64,000 nt of DNA from an uncultured Gemmatimonadota bacterium (GTDB taxonomy: Bacteria; Gemmatimonadota; Gemmatimonadetes; Gemmatimonadales; Gemmatimonadaceae). A program made the position numbers and the translations under genes. Below the pieces are notes generated by a model that had not been told where the DNA came from, did not search any database, and worked only from the letters and a program-made list of their open reading frames with translations. Location: positions 124,001-188,000 of the forward strand of contig CADEFN010000004.1 of assembly GCA_902826615.1 (NCBI GenBank), given 5' to 3'. This document shows, one piece after another, positions 53,744 through 64,000 of this stretch. Each line of letters opens with the position of its first letter. Position 1 is the first letter of the stretch.

Positions 53744-55861
53744 TTATTTCGCCTTGCTGACAATCTCTTCGGCCTTGCTCTTCGGCACTTCCTCGTAGTG
53801 CGAGAATTCCATCGAGTACACCGCCCGGCCCTGGGTCATCGACCGCAGACGGGTGGAGTACCCGAACATCTCGCCTAACGGCACCGTGGAGGCAATCACC
53901 TGCGCCTCACCACGCTGCATCATCCCGCCGATCTTGCCGCGGCGCGACGACAGGTCGCCGAGGACGTCGCCCATGTACTGCTCGGGCGACACAACCTCGA
54001 CCTTCATCATGGGCTCGAGCAGGATGGGGCTGGCCTTGGCCGCGCCCTCCTTCACCGCCATTGAACCCGCAATCTTGAATGCCATTTCCGACGAGTCGAC
54101 GTCGTGGTACGAGCCGTACACCAGCTCGACCTTCACGTCCACCATCGGGTAGCCGGCCAGGACGCCGTTTTCCAGCGCTTCCTTGATCCCCTGCTCGACC
54201 GGCCCAATGTACTCACGCGGAATGACACCACCGACAATCTTGTCCTCGAACACGAAGCCATGGCCCTGTTCGCCCGGCATCACGTTGATGACCACGTGGC
54301 CGTACTGACCCTTACCGCCCGACTGGCGAATGAACTTCCCTTCGACCTTGTCGACGCGCTTCTTGATCGTTTCGCGATAGGCCACCTGCGGGCGACCCAC
54401 GTTGGCGTCGACCTTGAACTCGCGCATCATGCGGTCGACGATGATCTCGAGGTGTAACTCCCCCATCCCCGCGATGATCGTCTGACCCGTTTCGGTGTCC
54501 GTGTGCACCCGGAACGTCGGGTCTTCTTCTGCCAGCTTGTTGAGCGCAATCCCGAGCTTGTCCTGATCGGCCTTCGTCTTCGGCTCGATCGCGACCTCGA
54601 TGACCGGCATCGGGAACTTCATCGCCTCGAGGATGATCGGCTTCTCGTCGTCACACAGGGTGTCGCCGGTCCGCGTGTCCTTGAGCCCGATGGCGGCGGC
54701 GATGTCGCCCGCCCGCACTTCAGGAATCTCCTCGCGCTTGTTCGCATGCATCTGCAGCAGGCGGCCGATGCGCTCGCGCTTGTCCTTCGTCGAGTTGTAC
54801 ACGTGGCTGCCCGATGCGAGCACCCCGGAGTACACGCGGAAGAACGTCAGCTTTCCGACGAACGGATCGGTCGCGATCTTGAACGCCAGCGCCGCGAACG
54901 GCGCCTCGTCGCTCACCGCGCGCGTGTCAAACGTCTCGTCGTGGTGCGGCAGGTGGCCCTGGATGGCTTCGACGTCCACCGGTGCCGGCAGGAAGTCGAT
55001 CACCGCGTCGAGCAACGCCTGCACACCCTTGTTCTTGAAGGACGCACCGCACAGGATCGGCGTGAAACGCATCGTACACGTCGCCTTGCGGATCAGTCCG
55101 CGAATTTCATCGACGGAGAGCTCCTCGCCGGCCAGATAGCGCTCCATCAGCGCATCGTCATGCTCCACCACCGCTTCGATGAGCTCGTGACGAGCCTGCT
55201 CCACACGATCGCGGAATTCGTCACTCACGTCGCGGACGTCAAACGTCTTGCCTAACGTCTCGTTGTGGAAGATGTACTCCTTCCGCTCAACGATGTCGAT
55301 GTGTCCTGTGAACAGCTCGCCCGACCCGACCGGCAGCTGAACGGGGTATGCGCCCTTCGTCAGGCGATCCCGGATCATCTCGACGCATCGCTCAAAGTTC
55401 GCCCCAACGCGATCCATCTTGTTCGCGAAGATCATGCGCGGAACCTTGTACCGGTCCGCCTGGCGCCACACCGTCTCGGTCTGCGGCTCCACACCGGCCA
55501 CGGAATCCAGCAGGGCAACCGCGCCGTCCAGCACGCGCAGGGAGCGCTCCACCTCGACGGTGAAGTCCACGTGCCCGGGGGTGTCGATGATGTTGATGCG
55601 GTACTCCGGCCCCTCACCCTTGTCCTGGCTCGAGCCGTGGCGCTTCCAGAAACAGGTCGTCGCGGCCGACGTGATCGTGATGCCACGCTCCTGCTCCTGC
55701 TCCATCCAGTCCATCGTGGCAGCGCCATCGTGCACTTCGCCAATCTTGTGGCTCTTGCCCGTGTAGTACAGGATGCGCTCGGTCGTGGTCGTTTTCCCGG
55801 CATCAATGTGGGCCATGATGCCGATGTTGCGATAATGGTCGAGCGGCGTCGAGCGAGGCAT
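53744..55861 (-). CDS. fusA: Elongation factor G
   Basis: A protein of 705 residues. It drives ribosomal translocation. GTPase motifs: [15 protein letters not shown] (G1), [11 protein letters not shown] (G2), [17 protein letters not shown] (G3), [10 protein letters not shown] (G4). Domain IV and V strings are [16 protein letters not shown] and [15 protein letters not shown]. The next gene upstream should be rpsG, but here a lasso-peptide cluster intervenes. Confidence 0.99.
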
Positions 55862-56236
55862 ATCAGTCGTCTGTATCGTTAGGTCCCCACTTGCGCGGGG
55901 ATTCCATCAGCAAAAACGCGGGTGGACCTGCACCCCATACCTTGGGGCCGGTATCCATCCGCCACCGCCGGGTACACGCGCCGCTGCTGCACACGTGGGG
56001 ACCCATGGCGCGCCAGACCACCAGCGGCCTGACGTTGAGTTGTCCTGCGTCGCTTTTCGGGAGCCGGCTACCTCTGAGAGGACCGGGCGGTTAACCACAC
56101 CCCCACGAAATCCGTGGGCCCATAGGTGCCGACGCGCAGTTTCGTCGGCAATTCAGTCATTCCCCGCGGTCGGTTACGGGAGCCGAGGAATATCGAAGTG
56201 GCGGATGTTGAAGTCAATCCCCCACTTGGGACACTT
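55862..56236 (-). other. Structured intergenic region upstream of fusA
   Basis: No convincing coding sequence in these 375 bases. Read on the minus strand towards fusA, several hairpins can form: TGCCGACG/CGTCGGCA (8 bp, near 56127-56150), CCCACG/CGTGGG (56102-56118), CCCC/GGGG around 55933-55947, and, about 20 bases before the fusA start, a 7-bp stem TCCCCGC/GTGGGGA closed by a GCAA tetraloop (55884-55901). A copy of the CGTTAGGT octamer variant follows at 55877. It should hold the promoter and 5' leader of fusA now that the gene is separated from rpsG. I could not place a -35/-10 pair with confidence. Confidence 0.5.
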
Positions 56237-57460
56237 TCAAACGCCCGATCCAGCCCTCGTCACGCCACTCAGGTAACGCCCCCACTCTCCAAGATGGGCG
56301 AGCTGCCCGCGGAAGCGCGCCAGCTGGCTCAAAGGCTCCTGAGCTCCCGCGTGTACCAGGGGATCTTCGTCCCACGGGCGCCCCTCACCGACTTTTGCTG
56401 GCTCAAGGGCCAGGCTCCAGAGCAGCCGCCTCCACCTCTCCGATGGACAAGGCACAATTCGAGACACCACGTGCGCAGAAAGGTGGCGTTCGATCAGCCC
56501 TTCCAGCAGCGCCGTGCGCGGGCGCCGCAGGCCCCGCAGGAACGCCTCGGGAGCGTCGTGCCCCCCAGCAAGCAGATCCACCAGCCGGTAGCTCCAGAAC
56601 ACCGCCGACTGCGCCTGATACCGCCCTGCCACTGTAGCGACCGCGTCCCAGTCGACGCCGCCACGAGTCAGCGCGCGCAGATCGCGCGCAAGCCGCCAAA
56701 GCCCGAAGGACGCCAGGTGGGCCCACGCAAAGTGGACGGCGAGGTGCACAATCATGTGGGGAGCGTCCAGGACGTACACCTCTCCGTCCAGCCCACTCGC
56801 CCGCCGCCCGGCCTTGCGCGCTTCGTGGAACGAAAGCGCAAACGGATGCCCGCTCATGTTGAGGGCGGTGTGGATCTCGAGCTTGGCCCCGGTGCGTCGC
56901 TGATCGAAAAGGGGCGGCAGGTGGTGGTGGCTCAAATAGTGGTCTTTGGGAAAGGCCTGGGCATCCCAGGCCCAGCCATGCTCGATCGCGAGCTGCCACA
57001 GCCGCTCGGCATCATCGGGCGCCACCAGCAAGTCCAGATCGCCCATCGGGCGGTCCCCAAACGACGCATAGCTCGTCATGGCCAGACCAGCACCCTTGAG
57101 CATGACAACCGGCACGCCGTGCTCCTTGCAGAGCCGAAGCATTTCCAGAAGCCGCTCGCGCAGCATCAACCCTCGAAACTCGGAGACCGTGCTCACGCGA
57201 TCAAGTGCCACGGCGATCTCTGGAGAGGGTGCCGCACCCAGCGCACGCAAGCGACGCCAGCTCCAAGGGAGGCTGCGCTCCCATTCGGCCAGAATCAGCA
57301 GCTGCTCCCAGTCAAGCGGCCGCTGGAGCCGCGCACGAATGCGCGCATCCACTGCGTCCGGCCCGGCCGTCAGGAAAACGAGCTTGGCCTCATCTGGAAG
57401 GAGAGCGCCCTGCGAGGAATCGTCGGTCACGAGAGGTGATGACCGGTCAGGAGTGAGCAC
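56237..57460 (-). CDS. Nucleotidyltransferase-family protein of lasso cluster
   Basis: A protein of 407 residues, GTG start at 57460, 6 bases after the permease stop. The polymerase-beta-like nucleotidyltransferase pattern is visible: VVMLKGAG (residues about 118-125) and PMGDLDLLV with Asp141 and Asp143. It matches the large family of putative nucleotidyltransferases common in lasso clusters that also carry an HPr-kinase-like enzyme. By context it may add a nucleotide or otherwise extend the phosphorylated tail of the peptide, but no reaction is established here. It is the last gene of the lasso cluster, next to the fusA leader. Confidence 0.8.
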   Translation of the reverse strand: MLTPDRSSPLVTDDSSQGALLPDEAKLVFLTAGPDAVDARIRARLQRPLDWEQLLILAEWERSLPWSWRRLRALGAAPSPEIAVALDRVSTVSEFRGLMLRERLLEMLRLCKEHGVPVVMLKGAGLAMTSYASFGDRPMGDLDLLVAPDDAERLWQLAIEHGWAWDAQAFPKDHYLSHHHLPPLFDQRRTGAKLEIHTALNMSGHPFALSFHEARKAGRRASGLDGEVYVLDAPHMIVHLAVHFAWAHLASFGLWRLARDLRALTRGGVDWDAVATVAGRYQAQSAVFWSYRLVDLLAGGHDAPEAFLRGLRRPRTALLEGLIERHLSAHVVSRIVPCPSERWRRLLWSLALEPAKVGEGRPWDEDPLVHAGAQEPLSQLARFRGQLAHLGEWGRYLSGVTRAGSGV

Positions 57461-57466
57461 ATGTGG

Positions 57467-58273
57467 CTACGCGCGAGCAAGCGTACCAGTGACTCGGGCG
57501 CGCCGTAAGGCCGACCCAAACAACACCAATCCCAACCCACAAACCGTTACGGTCATGATCACCAGGATGCCCAGGTCCGATCCAGCTTCAGCAAAGCTCT
57601 TGCCGTCAAGAAGAATGCGGCGCAACGCGCGCAGACCATAGCTGGCCGGAACGAAATTGGAAAGCACCTGCAATCCACCGGGGATGACGGACGTGGGGTA
57701 AAACGCGCCGCCAAGGAGGGTTGTCCCCACCACAAATATCTGGCGCAGGGGACCCTCAGTACGGAAAGCAATAACCATGGCCGCGCCGCACAAACCGACG
57801 CCCCAGTGCAACACCATGATCAGCAGCAGGACAAACAACCCGGGGATAATCGCCGCGCCGGCGATGCGTGCCCCCAACGCCCAGCCGGCAATCATGACGA
57901 GGAGCGCGCGCAATAAGGCCCAGAGAATCTGATACGCCGAGAGCCCAATGAGCCATGTGAGCCAGGGCGTCCGTGTCAGGAGAAGTCCCTCGAGAAAGCC
58001 GCTCCCGATCCCGGCCTGTACCACACCCGGCAAAATGCTGATGCACGAACTCACCAGGGAAATGATCATGGTGCCGGTCAGCACGAAGGCAAAGTACTGC
58101 GTGCCTTCCTGCGCAATCCGCGGTGCCATCGTTCCCTGCAGTGCGTTGGCCACGAAGTACACCGGCACGACCGTAAACCCAAGCGCCAGCAGCGACAGCA
58201 CCGTCTGCGTGCGATACGTCGAGAAGGTCAGCCATTCGGCACGCAGGAGGGCCCCTACCGCTCGCCAGTTCAT
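57467..58273 (-). CDS. ABC transporter permease (ABC-2 type) of lasso cluster
   Basis: A protein of 268 residues with six predicted membrane helices (for example TVLSLLALGFTVVPVYFVANAL, GTMIISLVSSCISILPGVVQAGI, PGLFVLLLIMVLHWGVGLCGAAMVI, and a final LGILVIMTVTVCGLGLVLFGSAL). The fold and the FYPTSVIPGGLQVLSNFVPASYGL loop before the last helices are typical of ABC-2 drug or lipid exporters. It overlaps the ATPase stop by 4 bases. With the ATPase it probably exports the finished peptide or gives immunity, replacing the single-chain LasD-type exporter. Confidence 0.85.
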   Translation of the reverse strand: MNWRAVGALLRAEWLTFSTYRTQTVLSLLALGFTVVPVYFVANALQGTMAPRIAQEGTQYFAFVLTGTMIISLVSSCISILPGVVQAGIGSGFLEGLLLTRTPWLTWLIGLSAYQILWALLRALLVMIAGWALGARIAGAAIIPGLFVLLLIMVLHWGVGLCGAAMVIAFRTEGPLRQIFVVGTTLLGGAFYPTSVIPGGLQVLSNFVPASYGLRALRRILLDGKSFAEAGSDLGILVIMTVTVCGLGLVLFGSALRRARVTGTLARA

Positions 58274-59280
58274 GCGCGCACCTGCGTGACCCGCTCGAGC
58301 AGGTCCGCCAGGGAAGCCCGCTCGGCCGTGAACTCGGACACTTCCACGCCGGCACTAACCAATTTCTGCAGGACTTGTGCGCCGGACGTCGCACCACCGT
58401 CGAGAAAGACGTGAACGTCGCCCCACCCATCACCAGCGGGAGCGACCGGGCTTACGCGGCGCACAAAGGGCGAGTGCGTGAGCGAGGCAAACGCGGGATG
58501 CGACGGCTCACGCGTTCGCACGGTCACCCGTGGCTCGACATATCGTGCCGCGAGTTCGCGCGCCGGGCCCTCTGCCACGAGGACCCCGTGATGAAGGATG
58601 GCGACCCGGTCACACAGATCGAACGCCTCGTCCGCGTCGTGTGTCGCAAGGACAACTGCGGACTGCCGCTTCTTCGCCAGCTCTTCCCGCAGAAAGGTGC
58701 GAAAGGCGCGCGCCGAGATCGGGTCGAGACTGCGCGTGGGTTCGTCGAGAAGGAGCACCCGCGGCTGGGCCAGCAACGCTCGCGCAACAAACAGCCGCTG
58801 AATCATGCCTGACGAGTATTCCCCCACCATGCGATCGGCCGCGTCCGCGAGACCAACAACCTCGAGCACCGTCGCAATCTTGCCGTGCAGCTCTGACTCG
58901 GCAAGGCGGTTCAGTGTGCCAAAGAGCCGAAGATTCTCGCGGGCCGAGAGTCGCCAGAAGAGACCGCGTTCGGTGGCAAGGGAGATGGACACGAGATCAC
59001 GCACCGCCGTCGCCTCTCGTACCACGTCGTGGCCACCCACCTGGGCGCTGCCGCTGTCAGGAATCAGCAGCGTCGACAGCATCTTCATGAGCGTGGTCTT
59101 GCCGGCACCGTTCACACCGAGTAACCCGTAAAACTCGCCAGGGGCCACGCGGAAACTCACGCCGCGCACCACCTCGAGAGTCCTTGCCGGCGTTCCACGG
59201 AGCAGGTCCCGGAAACCCCGGAGCGGATGGAAATGCTTTTTGAGGTCGTCGACGACGACCAGCGCCGCCGTATCCGTCAC
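58270..59280 (-). CDS. ABC transporter ATP-binding protein of lasso cluster
   Basis: A protein of 336 residues. Walker [10 protein letters not shown] (residues 55-63), a degenerate signature ([17 protein letters not shown]), Walker [15 protein letters not shown] and the H-loop [11 protein letters not shown]. The DrrA/CcmA-like type pairs with ABC-2 permeases. The last ~100 residues form an additional domain. It starts at 59280, overlapping the kinase stop as ATGA, and its own stop overlaps the permease start, so the three genes are translationally coupled. Confidence 0.9.
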
Positions 59281-60218
59281 GGCACGCTACCAACGCCCGG
59301 CGGAGATGCATGCCAGCCTTTGAGCTGCTCGACTGCCGAGTCGAGCCTCCCCAGGTCTCGGCGAATACGCAGGCGGTACACCGGTACACGGGAAGCCACG
59401 TCGGCCATCTGATGAAAGTGCGCCGTCGCCTCGGGGCCTCGCAGTAGACTCCCCAGCTTGCTCTGCTCAATCAGCGCCATTGTCGCCAGGGGCGCGGGCA
59501 GCAACTCACGCTCTATTTCGGGGACGGAGGGGTCGGCCGGCGCCGGGGAGAGCAGATACGCAGCTGCAAAGCGCACCGAGGTCACTTCCTCTTCGAAGTG
59601 GGACGCGATCAGCTTGCGATCATCGGCCCCCTCATGCGCCCCTTCCAGCTCGATTGCCGTGGCTGAATCTCGCAGCAGCCGAATGCGCGTCACCCCAGGC
59701 CGCAGCCGTGGAGCCGCCCCACGAACAATCGGCAGAGTGTCGTCGGTCAGGACCCGAGCCCCCCCTCTGGCAAGCCCGGCAGCAATAGTCGATTTGCCGA
59801 ACCCCTTGGGCCCCATGAACGACACCCCTTCGCCACCGATGGACACCGCGCTCGCATGAAGACTGGGGACCCCCTGGAGGTGAAAGAGCATGGCCATGAC
59901 CCTTCCCAGCACATCAGCCCGCATACCCTCCCTCAGATGGTCATCTGCGCCGTCCGGGGCATACCAGACTATCTGACCACTGGCGGTGATATCGAAGCGC
60001 CCAGTGTCATCGTAGATGAGGGAGATCCCTTCTGCGGTCCGATATGACCGCACCTTCGTTTCGCCGAAGACGATGTCCTCGCCGACAAGCTCCAGCGGGC
60101 CAACTGGGGGCTCATGCCCCACCGCGAGGTTCCATTCATTTTCTTGATCGGACGCCTGCAGTTCCGTGAATGGGAAAGCGGACTCGAGGGTCCCGCCAAA
60201 TACTCGGTAGCTGTGCAC
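59277..60218 (-). CDS. HPr-kinase-like lasso peptide kinase
   Basis: A protein of 313 residues, GTG start at 60218. The C-terminal half is HPr kinase/phosphorylase-like: P-loop GPKGFGKST (residues 136-144) with DD at 159-160 (LTDDTLP) and HASAVSIGGEG before it. The N-terminal ~110 residues replace the HprK N domain. In paeninodin-type clusters such kinases phosphorylate the C-terminal Ser of the lasso precursor, and the precursor here ends in Ser. A 13-bp palindrome and a TATAGT box (60329-60334, minus strand) precede the gene, so it may have its own promoter. Confidence 0.85.
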   Translation of the reverse strand: MHSYRVFGGTLESAFPFTELQASDQENEWNLAVGHEPPVGPLELVGEDIVFGETKVRSYRTAEGISLIYDDTGRFDITASGQIVWYAPDGADDHLREGMRADVLGRVMAMLFHLQGVPSLHASAVSIGGEGVSFMGPKGFGKSTIAAGLARGGARVLTDDTLPIVRGAAPRLRPGVTRIRLLRDSATAIELEGAHEGADDRKLIASHFEEEVTSVRFAAAYLLSPAPADPSVPEIERELLPAPLATMALIEQSKLGSLLRGPEATAHFHQMADVASRVPVYRLRIRRDLGRLDSAVEQLKGWHASPPGVGSVP

Positions 60219-60269
60219 GGATTACCGGATAGCTGAGCCAGCGAAACATGTTTGATGCAGTCCCGCAAC

Positions 60270-60282
60270 GGTCACTGTGACC
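60270..60282. promoter_or_regulatory. Perfect palindrome upstream of kinase gene
   Basis: GGTCACTGTGACC, a perfect 6-bp inverted repeat around a central base, centred 58 bases upstream of the kinase start and 47 bases downstream of a TATAGT box. It has the form of a dimeric repressor or activator site, but the regulator is unknown. Confidence 0.45.
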
Positions 60283-60382
60283 TGTGGCGTACGCACGATG
60301 GTGACACGCCTCATACGAGTCTGCGCCCACTATAGTCACCCAAAGGGTTCTTGCAGTGAAGGGGTGGCCATGTCGCTTCCCG

Positions 60383-60418
60383 AAAAAGAAAAAGGGCGCA
60401 CCTTGTGAGGCGCGCCCT
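60383..60418 (-). terminator. Intrinsic terminator/attenuator after lasso precursor
   Basis: On the minus strand: stem AGGGCGC/GCGCCCT extended by inner CC/GG pairs, then TTTTTCTTTTT. It lies 34 bases after the precursor stop. Such hairpins often follow lasso precursor genes so that precursor mRNA exceeds that of the enzymes; here it sits between the precursor and the kinase-transporter genes. Confidence 0.9.
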
Positions 60419-60451
60419 CCAACTGTGACCCGGTTAAGGCGATAAACTGCC

Positions 60452-60616
60452 TTACGAGCGGACGATGCAGGCGCCCGGTCCCGTCGGACTCTTGGGATTC
60501 GGGTTGCACTGGATGTCGCCGATGCCCGGAAGTGAATCCATTCCAGGAACCGTCTTATCCGTAAGGGTCAGCTCTCGGAAACTGCCGAAACGCTGAAGTG
60601 TCGGTGCTTCGTACAT
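60452..60616 (-). CDS. Lasso peptide precursor
   Basis: A protein of 54 residues from the ATG at 60616 with an excellent Shine-Dalgarno (GGGAGGAAATACCG). The leader fits the canonical lasso pattern Y-x2-P-x-L-x3-G-x5-T: Tyr2, Pro5, Leu7, Gly11, Thr17. Taking Thr17 as the conserved -2 Thr, the core is residues 19-54: N-terminal Thr, with Asp27 exactly at core position 9 as ring acceptor. This is the only Thr choice giving an acidic residue at 8 or 9; another leads to Asp at position 7 from Lys21. The tail has Cys37 and Cys50, which may form a disulphide, is Pro/Gly/Asn-rich, and ends in Ser54, the likely phosphorylation site. At 36 residues the core is long for a lasso peptide. Confidence 0.85.
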   Translation of the reverse strand: MYEAPTLQRFGSFRELTLTDKTVPGMDSLPGIGDIQCNPNPKSPTGPGACIVRS

Positions 60617-60660
60617 CGGTATTTCCTCCCAGTAAAGTGTCCTTCCTCGCTTTAGAACCA

Positions 60661-60677
60661 AGCAACTCGCGTGCCAA
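60661..60677 (-). promoter_or_regulatory. Sigma-54 (RpoN) -24/-12 promoter of the lasso precursor
   Basis: The minus strand reads TTGGCACGCGAGTTGCT, a full match to the sigma-54 consensus TTGGCACG-N4-TTGCW, with GG and GC 12 bases apart. Transcription would start near 60650, giving a ~34-base leader before the precursor ATG. It lies in the 146-base gap between cyclase and precursor. Confidence 0.88.
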
Positions 60678-60723
60678 CCGCTCACGCCGCTTGCCCACTG
60701 TGTGAGCCGCAACGGAACTTAGA

Positions 60724-60743
60724 TGTGCGAATCCTCATGCACA
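60724..60743. promoter_or_regulatory. Candidate enhancer dyad upstream of the sigma-54 promoter
   Basis: Inverted repeat TGTGC-N10-GCACA about 60 bases upstream of the -24/-12 element. Sigma-54 promoters need an upstream activator site, and this is the only clear dyad in the gap, but it is closer than most known enhancers. Confidence 0.35.
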
Positions 60744-60762
60744 ATCGGATTTTCTATATGGA

Positions 60763-62658
60763 TCAGTAAGGGAATTGGCGTAGCCACTCCTCGCATGTCA
60801 GCGCGAGATAGAGCTGGACGTACTGGAGGTGATCCATCGTGGTCAGGTTGTCGAGGTATCGGAGCATGAGGGGTACGTCGACGAGGCCCATTTGGCTAAG
60901 CCGCCAGGCCGAAGCAGGCCCCAGGGCCGTGGCCAGGGCCGGGGCCTCGACTCGCATCGAGCGCTGGAACTCACCCCCTGGCGTTCCAGTCTTGGAGGGC
61001 CTGGGCGCGATGACCCAGTCGGGCAGTACGCCCCGCATGGCCTCCCTCAGGAGCGGTTTGGGCTGCCCCGCGATTCCGCGCTCTGAGACGGGTCTCGAGG
61101 CCGCGAACTCAACAATACGACGGTCAAGCAAGGGGGACCGGAGCTCGACGCCTTCATCCAGGGCCATACCGGTTGCCCAGCTGATGGCGCGAGGGAAATA
61201 GGGAGTCTCCACGTACCAACGGGACTCATACGCTGACGGGCTTTCGAGGAATCTTCTTGGTGGCTCGCGGCGAAGCCGTCTTCGGACCAACGGATCCTCC
61301 CGCCATCGGGACTGGATCCAGGGCGCCTGGGTCTGCCAAGTGGCGTCCTCGTCTGAACGACCCCTGGCTCTCGACTGCCAGTATCGAACGCGCTCCGGCA
61401 GCCAGGGCAGCAGCCCCAGCCTCACGATTGTGCGGAACCCTGAGTCGCCGTAACCCTGGAGCTCGCGCACGAGTTCGGTGATCCGACCTCTCACCAGGTA
61501 ATCCGCCAGGTACGACTTGGAGATGCCAAACAACTGGTCGCCCCCGTAGCCATCCAGCGCCATTCCAGCGCCAAGGTGCCGAGCCTTCCTCGCCATAGTT
61601 CGGTTCTTGGCTTCGAAGGTGTGGGCATAGGGGTCGTCGCGGTGGGCCGCCCACCCCTTGATGTCGCCAAAGAGACCAAGGGTGGCACTCGGAATCCAAT
61701 TGACGTCCAGGGAAAACCGGTCGGAGATGGCCTGCACAAAATGATCTTCCCGCCCCATATCCCCTTCGGGGTACGAGACGGTGATTGGGGCAATCTTCCT
61801 GGGTGTTGCCGCTCCCCTCTCCATGGCGAGACATGCGCCCGCCAGAACTGCGGGTGAATCCGCTCCACCGCTCAGCCAGATCGCTACCGGGTCCCCCGAG
61901 AGCCTTACGGCAGTTGCCTGTACGATCAGCTCCCTGAGTTCTTCGCCCCCCGCCTTGAGATTGGGGGCACCAGAGACTCGAAAGGCCGGGGGGTGCCAGA
62001 CGCCTCGCGGCTGGAGGCCATGGCGCGGCTGCCAAACAAGCGTCGTCGCCGCCGGGACGGGAAAAACACCGACAAATCCGGTTGCCAGACTTCCGCCGAG
62101 GAGGCCGCTCAGGGCCGAGACCACGGCGGGCAGATTCAGCTGCGCGTTTACTCTGGGATGCGCCGCCACGCTGCGGGCCGCCGAGGCCACAACAATTGAG
62201 GCGCCGGCAACAGCATAGTGTAGAGGGCGCCTGCCGAGATGGTCGCGACCCAGGATCAGCCGCTCCTTGCCGGGATCCCAACACGCGAATGCGAAGTCGC
62301 CCTCGAGGTGCTGGATGCAGTCAGCGCCCCACACGGCGCATGCCTGAACCACAAGGCCACGGTCTGTGACCGCCGTCGAGGCCACGCCTGCTGCGGAGAG
62401 TTTGCGCCTCAGGTCCGCCTGGTAGTAGAGGCACCCATCGAGTGCCACGATCACCCCGTTACTGCGCTCCAGCGGCTGCGTCGCACCAAAAACGGCGGGT
62501 TCCCAATCGGTCATCGCCCCCGCCAGAGCGCACCCTGGTGCCGCCTCGGTACTGACGGTTCCCCCCCGCGAACGATATCCGCTCGAAAGAAGCGCGGACG
62601 CCTGCGCCCGAAGTTCGCCCTCTGGCTCCGGACCGGCGACGACCCCGATCGCCGTCAT
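60763..62658 (-). CDS. Lasso cyclase (asparagine synthetase-like, C protein)
   Basis: A protein of 631 residues from the ATG at 62658, which overlaps the B2 stop as ATGA. It has a class II amidotransferase-like N-terminal domain without the catalytic Cys2 (starts MTAIGVV), then a synthetase domain with the ATP-pyrophosphatase loop SGGADS at 263-268 and DGYGGDQLFG. In lasso biosynthesis it adenylates the ring Asp/Glu side chain and drives attack by the core N terminus. The C terminus (YVQLYLALTCEEWLRQF) is usual. It is followed by the precursor gene rather than preceded by it. Confidence 0.93.
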   Translation of the reverse strand: MTAIGVVAGPEPEGELRAQASALLSSGYRSRGGTVSTEAAPGCALAGAMTDWEPAVFGATQPLERSNGVIVALDGCLYYQADLRRKLSAAGVASTAVTDRGLVVQACAVWGADCIQHLEGDFAFACWDPGKERLILGRDHLGRRPLHYAVAGASIVVASAARSVAAHPRVNAQLNLPAVVSALSGLLGGSLATGFVGVFPVPAATTLVWQPRHGLQPRGVWHPPAFRVSGAPNLKAGGEELRELIVQATAVRLSGDPVAIWLSGGADSPAVLAGACLAMERGAATPRKIAPITVSYPEGDMGREDHFVQAISDRFSLDVNWIPSATLGLFGDIKGWAAHRDDPYAHTFEAKNRTMARKARHLGAGMALDGYGGDQLFGISKSYLADYLVRGRITELVRELQGYGDSGFRTIVRLGLLPWLPERVRYWQSRARGRSDEDATWQTQAPWIQSRWREDPLVRRRLRREPPRRFLESPSAYESRWYVETPYFPRAISWATGMALDEGVELRSPLLDRRIVEFAASRPVSERGIAGQPKPLLREAMRGVLPDWVIAPRPSKTGTPGGEFQRSMRVEAPALATALGPASAWRLSQMGLVDVPLMLRYLDNLTTMDHLQYVQLYLALTCEEWLRQFPY

Positions 62659-63101
62659 CGCAGGTCGGAGAGCTTGACTGGAATAGCCTGGTAGCCGGAG
62701 ACGTGGGCTTCGTCGTCCCCAAGGATTTCTCCGCAGAGTTCCACCCAGGCGTGTGCGGCAAACTTTCCGTCCTGCCGCGCCACACCAACACGCACGGCCG
62801 CTCCCTTCACTCCTTCGGCTTCTAGACGTTGGGTGATTGCCATGGCGCGTACCAGGCACGTTGGGCGAAAGACACCCCTTCGCGATGCCCTCATGACACC
62901 CTGCGCAATCAGTCTTGCTCTGCGCCGGTCGTCGGGCTCGAGCGAAGTGACGGCGTCGGCGCTTCCGGGATCAACCAGCCCTCCAACCGGAACAGACCTC
63001 AGGCTCTTTTGCGCCCTCAAGAGCGCCAGCTGGCCAAGAGCGATGGCCTTGAGCTCCGTGAATGAGGCGCGCCGGAGACTACGGAGTGCGTCCAGCATCC
63101 G
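62655..63101 (-). CDS. Lasso leader peptidase (transglutaminase-like B2 protein)
   Basis: About 148 residues from the ATG at 63101; an in-frame ATG at 63122 is an alternative and both overlap the B1 gene. Catalytic triad of the transglutaminase-like family: Cys81 (FRPTCLVRA), His116 (AAHAWVEL) and Asp128 (LGDD), with the His-to-Asp spacing of 12 as in McjB. It cleaves the leader after the conserved Thr-x pair, aided by B1. Its stop overlaps the cyclase start. Confidence 0.9.
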   Translation of the reverse strand, partial: RMLDALRSLRRASFTELKAIALGQLALLRAQKSLRSVPVGGLVDPGSADAVTSLEPDDRRRARLIAQGVMRASRRGVFRPTCLVRAMAITQRLEAEGVKGAAVRVGVARQDGKFAAHAWVELCGEILGDDEAHVSGYQAIPVKLSDLR

Positions 63102-63402
63102 GTGCCGAGGCCGACCCGCCATCGGCCGCGACGACAAGTCCACTCGCGAGTAAATCGCGGAGGAAGTTGCGCACGTCCTTCGCCAGGACCTCAGGCGCCA
63201 CATCCTTGAAGCGATCCGAAAGCTTGCGGCAGAGCCCCTCCACGGTATCCGCCGTGGGTAAGGCTTCCCAAATGATGGTCCCGACCGGATTCAGGCCGAA
63301 GTAGACCTCGGAGTCACTCGAAAACAACACGCCCCCGTCGGCCATCGCACGGAAGATGGCCGTTGGTGAAGGGCGCGGGAGGGGGGTCTCCGGAGTGGTC
63401 AC
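63079..63402 (-). CDS. PqqD-like leader-binding protein (lasso B1/RRE)
   Basis: A protein of 107 residues, GTG start at 63402. The PqqD/RiPP recognition fold is visible: DGGVLFSSDSEVYFGLNPVGTIIWEAL (residues about 22-48, quoted in part) and LCRKLSDRF...LAKDVRNFLRDLLASGLV. It binds the Tyr/Pro/Leu/Gly leader pattern and brings the precursor to B2. It is the first gene of the lasso cluster, 175 bases downstream of rpsG. Confidence 0.9.
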   Translation of the reverse strand: MTTPETPLPRPSPTAIFRAMADGGVLFSSDSEVYFGLNPVGTIIWEALPTADTVEGLCRKLSDRFKDVAPEVLAKDVRNFLRDLLASGLVVAADGGSASAPDAGRTP

Positions 63403-63577
63403 TTGAGGGATGAGACTAACGCTTCAAAGGAGCGTTTGCGAGAGCGGGAGGAATTATTGAACGCAACATCCTCATGTCGCCTCGGACGCCGGGCTTTCTT
63501 TGGACGGCCCAGCGTTGCCTCCGTCACGACAACGGCCAGCTCCGGGTGACACGCGGAGCTGGCTGGAACAACGACCG
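63403..63577 (-). other. Junction between rpsG and the lasso cluster
   Basis: This 175-base gap holds a strong hairpin right after rpsG (CCAGCTCCG/CGGAGCTGG, 63536-63562) and a second, AACGCT/AGCGTT, just before the B1 start (63419-63437). The first has no T-run. No clear sigma-70 or sigma-54 promoter is evident, so the B1-B2-cyclase genes may depend on read-through from the ribosomal genes. Confidence 0.5.
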
Positions 63578-64000
63578 CTACCAGCGATAGTGCGCGAAGG
63601 CCTTGTTGGCTTCAGCCATGCGGTGCGTGTCTTCCTTCTTCTTGATGGCATTGCCCTCACCCTTCGAGGCAGAGATCACCTCGGCGGCGAGTTTTTCGGC
63701 CATGGACTTCTCGTTCCGATCGCGGGAGTACGAGAGGAGCCAGCGCATGGCGAGTGCGGTCCGGCGTTCCGGGCGAACTTCGACGGGCACCTGGTAGGTT
63801 GCACCACCAACGCGCCGCGACTTGACCTCGATCACCGGCTTGAGGTTCGCCAGGGCCTGCTTGAAAATGTTCACGCCCGGCTGGGCGGTCCGTGACTCGA
63901 CGAGATCCATGGCGCCGTAGAAGATGCGTTCGGCGGTGGACTTCTTTCCCTGGAACATCAGGGAGTTGATGAACTTGGAAACAGTCTGGCTGTCATAGCG
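63578..64000 (-). CDS. rpsG: 30S ribosomal protein S7 (5' end outside window)
   Basis: About 140 C-terminal residues are visible; the frame continues past the window edge ([21 protein letters not shown], in part, is encoded at the edge), so about 15 N-terminal residues are missing. Signatures: [11 protein letters not shown]-like segment ([20 protein letters not shown]) and [14 protein letters not shown], ending KAFAHYRW. S7 binds the 16S 3' domain. In nearly all bacteria fusA follows directly; here a lasso cluster intervenes. Confidence 0.97.

Follow-up and report, generated by a model that had tools for sequence, protein, structure and literature searches.

A lasso-peptide cluster between rpsG and fusA in Gemmatimonadaceae: a split str operon with a likely insulated insertion hotspot

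The gene order rpsL-rpsG-fusA-tuf is among the most conserved in bacteria. How, then, does a complete lasso-peptide cluster come to lie inside it? The question is raised by a stretch of 64,000 nucleotides (the window) from contig CADEFN010000004.1 of an uncultured bacterium of the Gemmatimonadaceae (phylum Gemmatimonadota). On the minus strand of the window, rpsG extends to 63578, fusA begins at 55861, and the 7.7 kb between them hold eight lasso-cluster genes, all in the direction of the operon. The answer that we find likely is that the str operon is split here by an insulated hotspot for insertions, in which lasso clusters of the pseudomycoidin type have settled repeatedly, this one among them. 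Location, gene content, the family-wide opening of the gap, insulation signals, RNA covariation and the non-monophyly of the clusters were computed directly. The cluster itself is of a known kind, probably the pseudomycoidin/paeninodin type. New are the place where such clusters recur, a family-specific and apparently insulated hotspot, and, at the downstream edge of that place, a fusA leader RNA not described before; no paper describing this hotspot was found in the open-licence literature.

The rpsG-fusA gap across the family

Could the arrangement be an artefact, assembly or binning having joined unrelated contigs? The genome is a draft of 98 contigs. However, the window's contig measures 584 kb, and the same junctions are present on large contigs of independent genomes, such as G154 and G079. 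Assembly error was rejected through this recurrence. The junction error that a preliminary description of the locus had put forward for checking is thereby excluded, and the probability of an artefact is negligible.

We located rpsG and fusA in 179 genomes of the family, and found both on one contig and in one direction in 88. Among these 88, the gap ranged from 334 bp to 41 kb, with a median of 5634 bp, and it exceeded 1 kb in 71. Outside the family, in 81 genomes from the rest of the phylum, the median gap was 199 bp, and only 3 of the 81 had more than 1 kb. The junctions on either side were tight: rpsL-rpsG in 40 of 40 genomes (two of them outgroups), and fusA-tuf, with a spacing of 35-118 bp, in 28 of 28. 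Because these junctions are tight while rpsG-fusA is open, rpsL-rpsG and fusA-tuf-S10 behave as separate units. The locus is therefore like a str operon in that rpsL, rpsG, fusA and tuf are all present in the same order and direction, and unlike an intact one in that rpsG and fusA are split, by 7.7 kb here and openly so throughout the family, the whole acting as two units. A whole family has split a highly conserved operon at one precise junction, the neighbouring ones being tight, and the rules that hold operons together become testable.

The preliminary description had the cluster splitting the str operon. It does lie inside the operon, but the gap was already open: across the family, rpsG and fusA of relatives are separated by unrelated sequence, the very case that had been named as speaking against the proposal. 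The cluster therefore occupies a pre-opened gap and does not break an intact operon. A single insertion into an intact operon was rejected on the same grounds, the gap being open family-wide with unrelated cargo.

How unrelated this cargo is can be seen from the 65 intervals longer than 1.5 kb, which fall into 21 groups with no gene family shared between groups (genes were called by a simple frame-composition method, so that group numbers are approximate). The interval of g9 (Gemmatimonas) holds sugar epimerase, glycosyltransferase and PEP-CTERM genes; elsewhere, TonB receptors were found in g7, MacB-type permeases in g3 and an exosortase in g19. Non-lasso cargo was co-directional with the operon in 21 cases, opposite in 11 and mixed in 23. 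Reading the rpsG-fusA gap is a practical way of finding natural-product and surface-polysaccharide clusters in a rarely cultured phylum.

A single locus with many unrelated cargo sets recalls integration hotspots and genomic islands. Unlike genomic islands, this one is anchored in a housekeeping operon, and the edges of the present copy are without integrase, transposase or repeats. None of the three, terminal or edge direct repeats included, was found in this rpsG-fusA interval, in agreement with the preliminary description, and delivery by a mobile element was rejected for this copy. Comparison of the interval with its own genome by BLAST gave short partial matches only, all within the ABC ATPase gene.

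The rpoC-rpsL boundary is also open in the family (0.1-8.2 kb). Here, this genome has an open reading frame of 483 amino acids, and G043 has a kinase-like gene. In one member, G110, rpsL-rpsG and fusA lie approximately 13 kb apart on opposite strands, an inversion at the junction.

Signals at the edges of the gap

After rpsG, intrinsic terminators were found in at least 44 of the 88 family genomes, versus 4 in shuffles. Ahead of fusA, genomes with long gaps and genomes with short ones repeatedly show a promoter of the form TTGAC[AT]-16/17-TAnnTT, and a promoter score of at least 10 was reached in 15% of cases, versus 0.15% in shuffles.

Between this promoter and fusA lies a leader RNA. Its pattern was found in 87 of the 88 family intervals, and the 88th shows it by eye. 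The structure comprises a hairpin with seven covarying pairs, followed by a terminator-like stem and a run of U's. Changes on both sides were seen in 15 of 28 pairs, 95.8% of cells pair, and the covariation score was 0.272, versus 0.144 when shuffled and at most 0.096 when slid. Single-sequence folding was no more stable than that of shuffles (z 0.20), so that the case for the leader rests on covariation. A model of the leader matches the front of fusA family-wide, short-gap Gemmatirosa included, and this is its sole match in the window's genome. Weaker matches were present at the same junction in 10 genomes of the sister family, and the leader therefore seems older than the opening of the gap. 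One copy per genome is the rule; in G175, another copy lies at a distance of 40 kb.

Rfam 15 gave no match to the leader; at a permissive threshold, the only hit was a chance-level one (E 0.69) elsewhere in the 14 kb searched. A T-box identity, considered for a UGG..ACC stretch, was dropped, as there was no Rfam hit. From its sequence, we infer that the leader may switch between the terminator and an antiterminator formed by ACCCGGCG/CGCCYGGU, that is, act by attenuation. In streptococci, a transcription attenuator has been proposed at the same junction before fusA (PMC2965389). The present leader is likewise an attenuator candidate at that junction; it differs from the streptococcal element, the two being compared by description only, in having its own covarying architecture and no Rfam match. 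We consider it an undescribed candidate regulatory RNA, exposed by comparison of the gaps.

These signals suggest how the hotspot could work. The Gemmatimonadaceae str operon would consist of an rpsL-rpsG unit, in many genomes ended by a terminator, and a second unit, fusA-tuf-S10 and onward, with its own promoter and attenuator-like leader. The insulated space between them would let foreign DNA settle without cutting transcription of essential genes, and would have taken in many unrelated gene sets, among them the lasso cluster several times independently. Insulation by terminator, promoter and leader RNA appears to permit insertion, and may be what makes the site a hotspot.

Lasso clusters at the site

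Lasso clusters occupy the site in 18 genomes from 8 genera, namely g1 (4 genomes), g5 (2), g12, g14, g17 (2), g20 (3), g22 (2) and g34 (3), some of these carriers being on contigs that extend only to rpsG or only to fusA. Whether the arrangement is lineage-wide or a single event had been rightly asked at the outset; with this distribution, it is lineage-wide.

In a species tree built on rpoB, rpoC, rpsL, rpsG and fusA, the carriers fall in three places. The tree of the clusters themselves has one clade of g1, g12, g14 and g34, and another of g5 and g20 with g22 nearby, both of which broadly follow the species, whereas G158 and g17 form separate lineages. When relatives from elsewhere in the phylum were added (35 rows), the site clusters did not form one clade. 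Six changes of the label "str" are needed on this tree, at least five of them forced by supported branches, although three label changes may equal one gain plus two losses. What is firm in the tree is that g17 stands apart and that clade A holds together.

These trees bear on a different history, in which the operon was split once, by an ancient lasso insertion at the root of the family that was then inherited vertically, with later loss or replacement and refilling of the gap. The clusters of g22, g5 and g20 and those of g1, g12, g14 and g34, all at the same place, do group much like the species tree; cluster identity correlates with species identity (rho 0.54, G158 and g17 excluded); and G082 retains only an RRE remnant. 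However, clusters from elsewhere in the phylum are interspersed with those at the site, with the five or more changes that supported branches force, the g17 and G158 clusters are separate lineages, and promoter and leader are already in place in short-gap genera. An ancient insertion is therefore unlikely. Rather, the cluster tree calls for several independent arrivals or replacements of lasso clusters at the site, the exact number of which we do not claim. In the sister family, G220 (L276, 7354-16118) carries, immediately before rpsL-rpsG and in the same direction, a complete lasso cluster, which is a separate insertion beside the same operon.

Every lasso cluster at the site is co-directional with the operon. 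The preliminary description had suggested use of ribosomal-operon transcription, and the cluster could indeed be parked there to ride on it, read-through from rpsG driving growth-rate-coupled expression. The uniform orientation is in line with this, as are the co-directional cluster just upstream of rpsL in the sister family and the lack of a T-run in the hairpin after rpsG of this genome. Yet the terminators after rpsG are also present in lasso carriers (G016, G083, G107 and G157), much of the other cargo is oriented opposite to the operon, and the precursor gene here has a sigma-54-type promoter and a terminator of its own. This promoter occupies the same position in each of the five clade-A genomes inspected, scores of at least 10 were reached at 7 of 38 precursors versus 1.1% of shuffles, and rpoN is present in the window's genome. 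A perfect -24/-12 promoter before the precursor gene and a strong terminator after it argue for independent expression, and the precursor would be fired from the sigma-54 promoter. A promoter and leader likewise stand before fusA. Taken together, these signals do not support ribosomal-operon transcription as a general driver, and a cluster placed to ride on it is quite improbable. Read-through from rpsG into the RRE-B2-C part is possible in this genome.

Could the neighbourhood be functional instead? If the lasso product acted on RNA polymerase, on the ribosome or on a translation factor, linkage to rpoBC, rpsL, rpsG, fusA and tuf would co-transfer a resistant target allele. One class of ribosomally synthesized and post-translationally modified peptide has indeed arrived repeatedly beside translation genes, in two families. 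However, the same site accepts exopolysaccharide, TonB-receptor and other cargo, and core sequences vary widely among carriers; such a pairing is very unlikely. A broader proposal seems to us doubtful: that the independent, always co-directional lasso arrivals at rpsG-fusA and upstream of rpsL go beyond neutral docking and reflect selection, be it for expression coupled to growth or for linkage with a resistant ribosomal, elongation-factor or RNA-polymerase target, and that a new class of fusA attenuator RNA governs the junction.

Against repeated occupation of an insulated hotspot, several points must be set. No terminator after rpsG was found in half of the genomes, this one included, and read-through may occur here. 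The shuffles used for the terminators, the fusA promoter and the sigma-54 promoter preserve base composition only. The cluster tree was made under LG+G4 with partial rows, and its deep nodes are weak. Finally, the uniform orientation of the lasso clusters could reflect transcriptional coupling, selection against head-on genes or, equally well, chance (approximately 1 in 32 for five events).

The cluster, its predicted product and its variants

Counted from rpsG, the genes are RRE, B2, C, A, an HprK-like kinase, an ABC ATPase, an ABC-2 permease and NTP_transf_5 (Table 1). Matches to Pfam, NF and TIGR profiles, together with the common direction of the genes, bear out the original description of a complete lasso cluster between rpsG and fusA. 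Cyclase C matched NF033535 with an E value of 1e-48, yet under the strict cut-off of that model. In alignment it keeps the SGGxDS motif and is missing the N-terminal Cys of glutamine-using asparagine synthases. The named relatives found in the named genome collection were distant cyclases of Sphingomonas and Planctomycetia, 28-29% identical.

Table 1. Features of the rpsG-fusA interval and its borders, in window coordinates.
Feature	Position	Strand	Evidence
rpsG (ribosomal protein S7), truncated at window end	63578..64000	-	Pfam Ribosomal_S7 2.6e-54
GC-rich hairpin just after rpsG (CCAGCTCCG...CGGAGCTGG)	63536..63562	-	sequence; no T-run, at best a weak terminator
RRE / B1, PqqD-like leader-binding protein	63079..63402	-	PqqD PF05402 2.9e-16; lasso_PqqD models under cut-off
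B2 leader peptidase, transglutaminase-like	62655..63099	-	NF033537 lasso_biosyn_B2 58.8 bits, cut-off 33
C, lasso macrolactam cyclase, asparagine-synthase-like	60763..62658	-	Asn_synthase PF00733 1.4e-29; GATase_7 (PF13537) 4e-23
Sigma-54 (-24/-12) promoter TGGCACGCGAGTTGCT upstream of precursor A	60661..60676	-	12/12 match
A, precursor peptide MYEAPTLQRFGSFRELTLTDKTVPGMDSLPGIGDIQCNPNPKSPTGPGACIVRS	60452..60616	-	NF033521 lasso leader, above cut-off
Intrinsic terminator after precursor gene, 13 bp stem + T-run	60391..60420	-	sequence
HprK-like kinase, candidate C-terminal Ser kinase	59277..60218	-	PF07475 3.8e-5, TIGR04352 1.7e-6, both under curated cut-offs
ABC exporter ATPase, DrrA-like	58270..59280	-	PF00005 7e-29; TIGR01188 1.5e-65
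ABC-2 permease	57467..58273	-	PF01061 7.8e-10
NTP_transf_5 nucleotidyltransferase-like protein, PsmN-like tailoring candidate	56237..57460	-	PF14907 2.8e-36
Sigma-70-type promoter TTGACT-17-GATATT of fusA unit	56189..56217	-	TTGAC[AT]-type promoter at same place in many relatives
fusA leader RNA: covarying hairpin + terminator-like stem + U-tract	55911..56014	-	model R1 E=1.3e-14
fusA (EF-G), heads fusA-tuf-rpsJ-rplC-rplD unit	53744..55861	-	TIGR00484 1149 bits; downstream gene order

The precursor carries the standard lasso leader motif, matching the YxxPxLxxxG pattern with a Thr near the end of the leader, and ends in a C-terminal Ser (..CIVRS). Compared by eye, YxxPxLxRFGxFRELT is conserved in the leaders of the relatives' precursors. 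If the leader ends LTL|T, as the penultimate-Thr (Thr-2) rule would have it, the ring acceptor in this copy is probably Asp9; in most relatives it is Asp8. Other g1 and g12 precursors depart from the simple acceptor rule, and those of g17 are without an acidic residue at core positions 7-9.

In lasso pathways, leader binding, cleavage and ring closure are assigned to RRE, B2 and C. Here, RRE would bind the leader, B2 would cut it off, and C would link the new N-terminus to the Asp side chain, closing the ring. Modification of the C-terminal Ser would fall to the HprK-like kinase and the nucleotidyltransferase, and export of the product to the DrrAB-like ABC pair. These roles are predicted from what is known of lasso pathways and from the pseudomycoidin/paeninodin precedent, in which a kinase and a nucleotidyltransferase tailor the C-terminal Ser (PMC9266682). 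The present cluster is like the psm and pade clusters of Bacillota in having A and C, a B protein divided into B1 and B2, a candidate tailoring kinase and a C-terminal Ser on the precursor, and like the pseudomycoidin cluster in having a nucleotidyltransferase-like N protein, the likeness being one of gene content as described (PMC9266682). Unlike them, it belongs to another phylum and lies between rpsG and fusA, its exporter is of the two-part DrrAB type, and its kinase falls under the curated HprK cut-offs.

The g17 clusters have no cyclase gene in three genomes, G091, G090 and G089 (L116, L261 and L262), the last being a contig fragment without rpsG or fusA. A tblastn search of the three stretches with cyclases gave nothing significant. 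The cyclase and the acidic acceptor are absent from the same clusters, in keeping with a product other than a macrolactam, and the g17 cluster is apparently a natural cyclase-less relative of lasso clusters.

Other variants were encountered. In G157 (L151/L287) and G159 (L270/L288), the site holds only RRE, B2, ABC, permease and N, and a trio of A, C and kinase stands elsewhere in the genome, as if the cluster were divided over two loci. G083 (L113) has tandem lasso clusters in one interval, with two each of C, A, RRE and kinase, and one B2. In G101 (L282, 173-10692), a second related lasso cluster, divergent, lies beside genes that by eye resemble murC, ftsQ, ftsA and ftsZ. A second and distant lasso B2 locus stands on a different contig of the window's genome itself (G000:C12:30082-30438).

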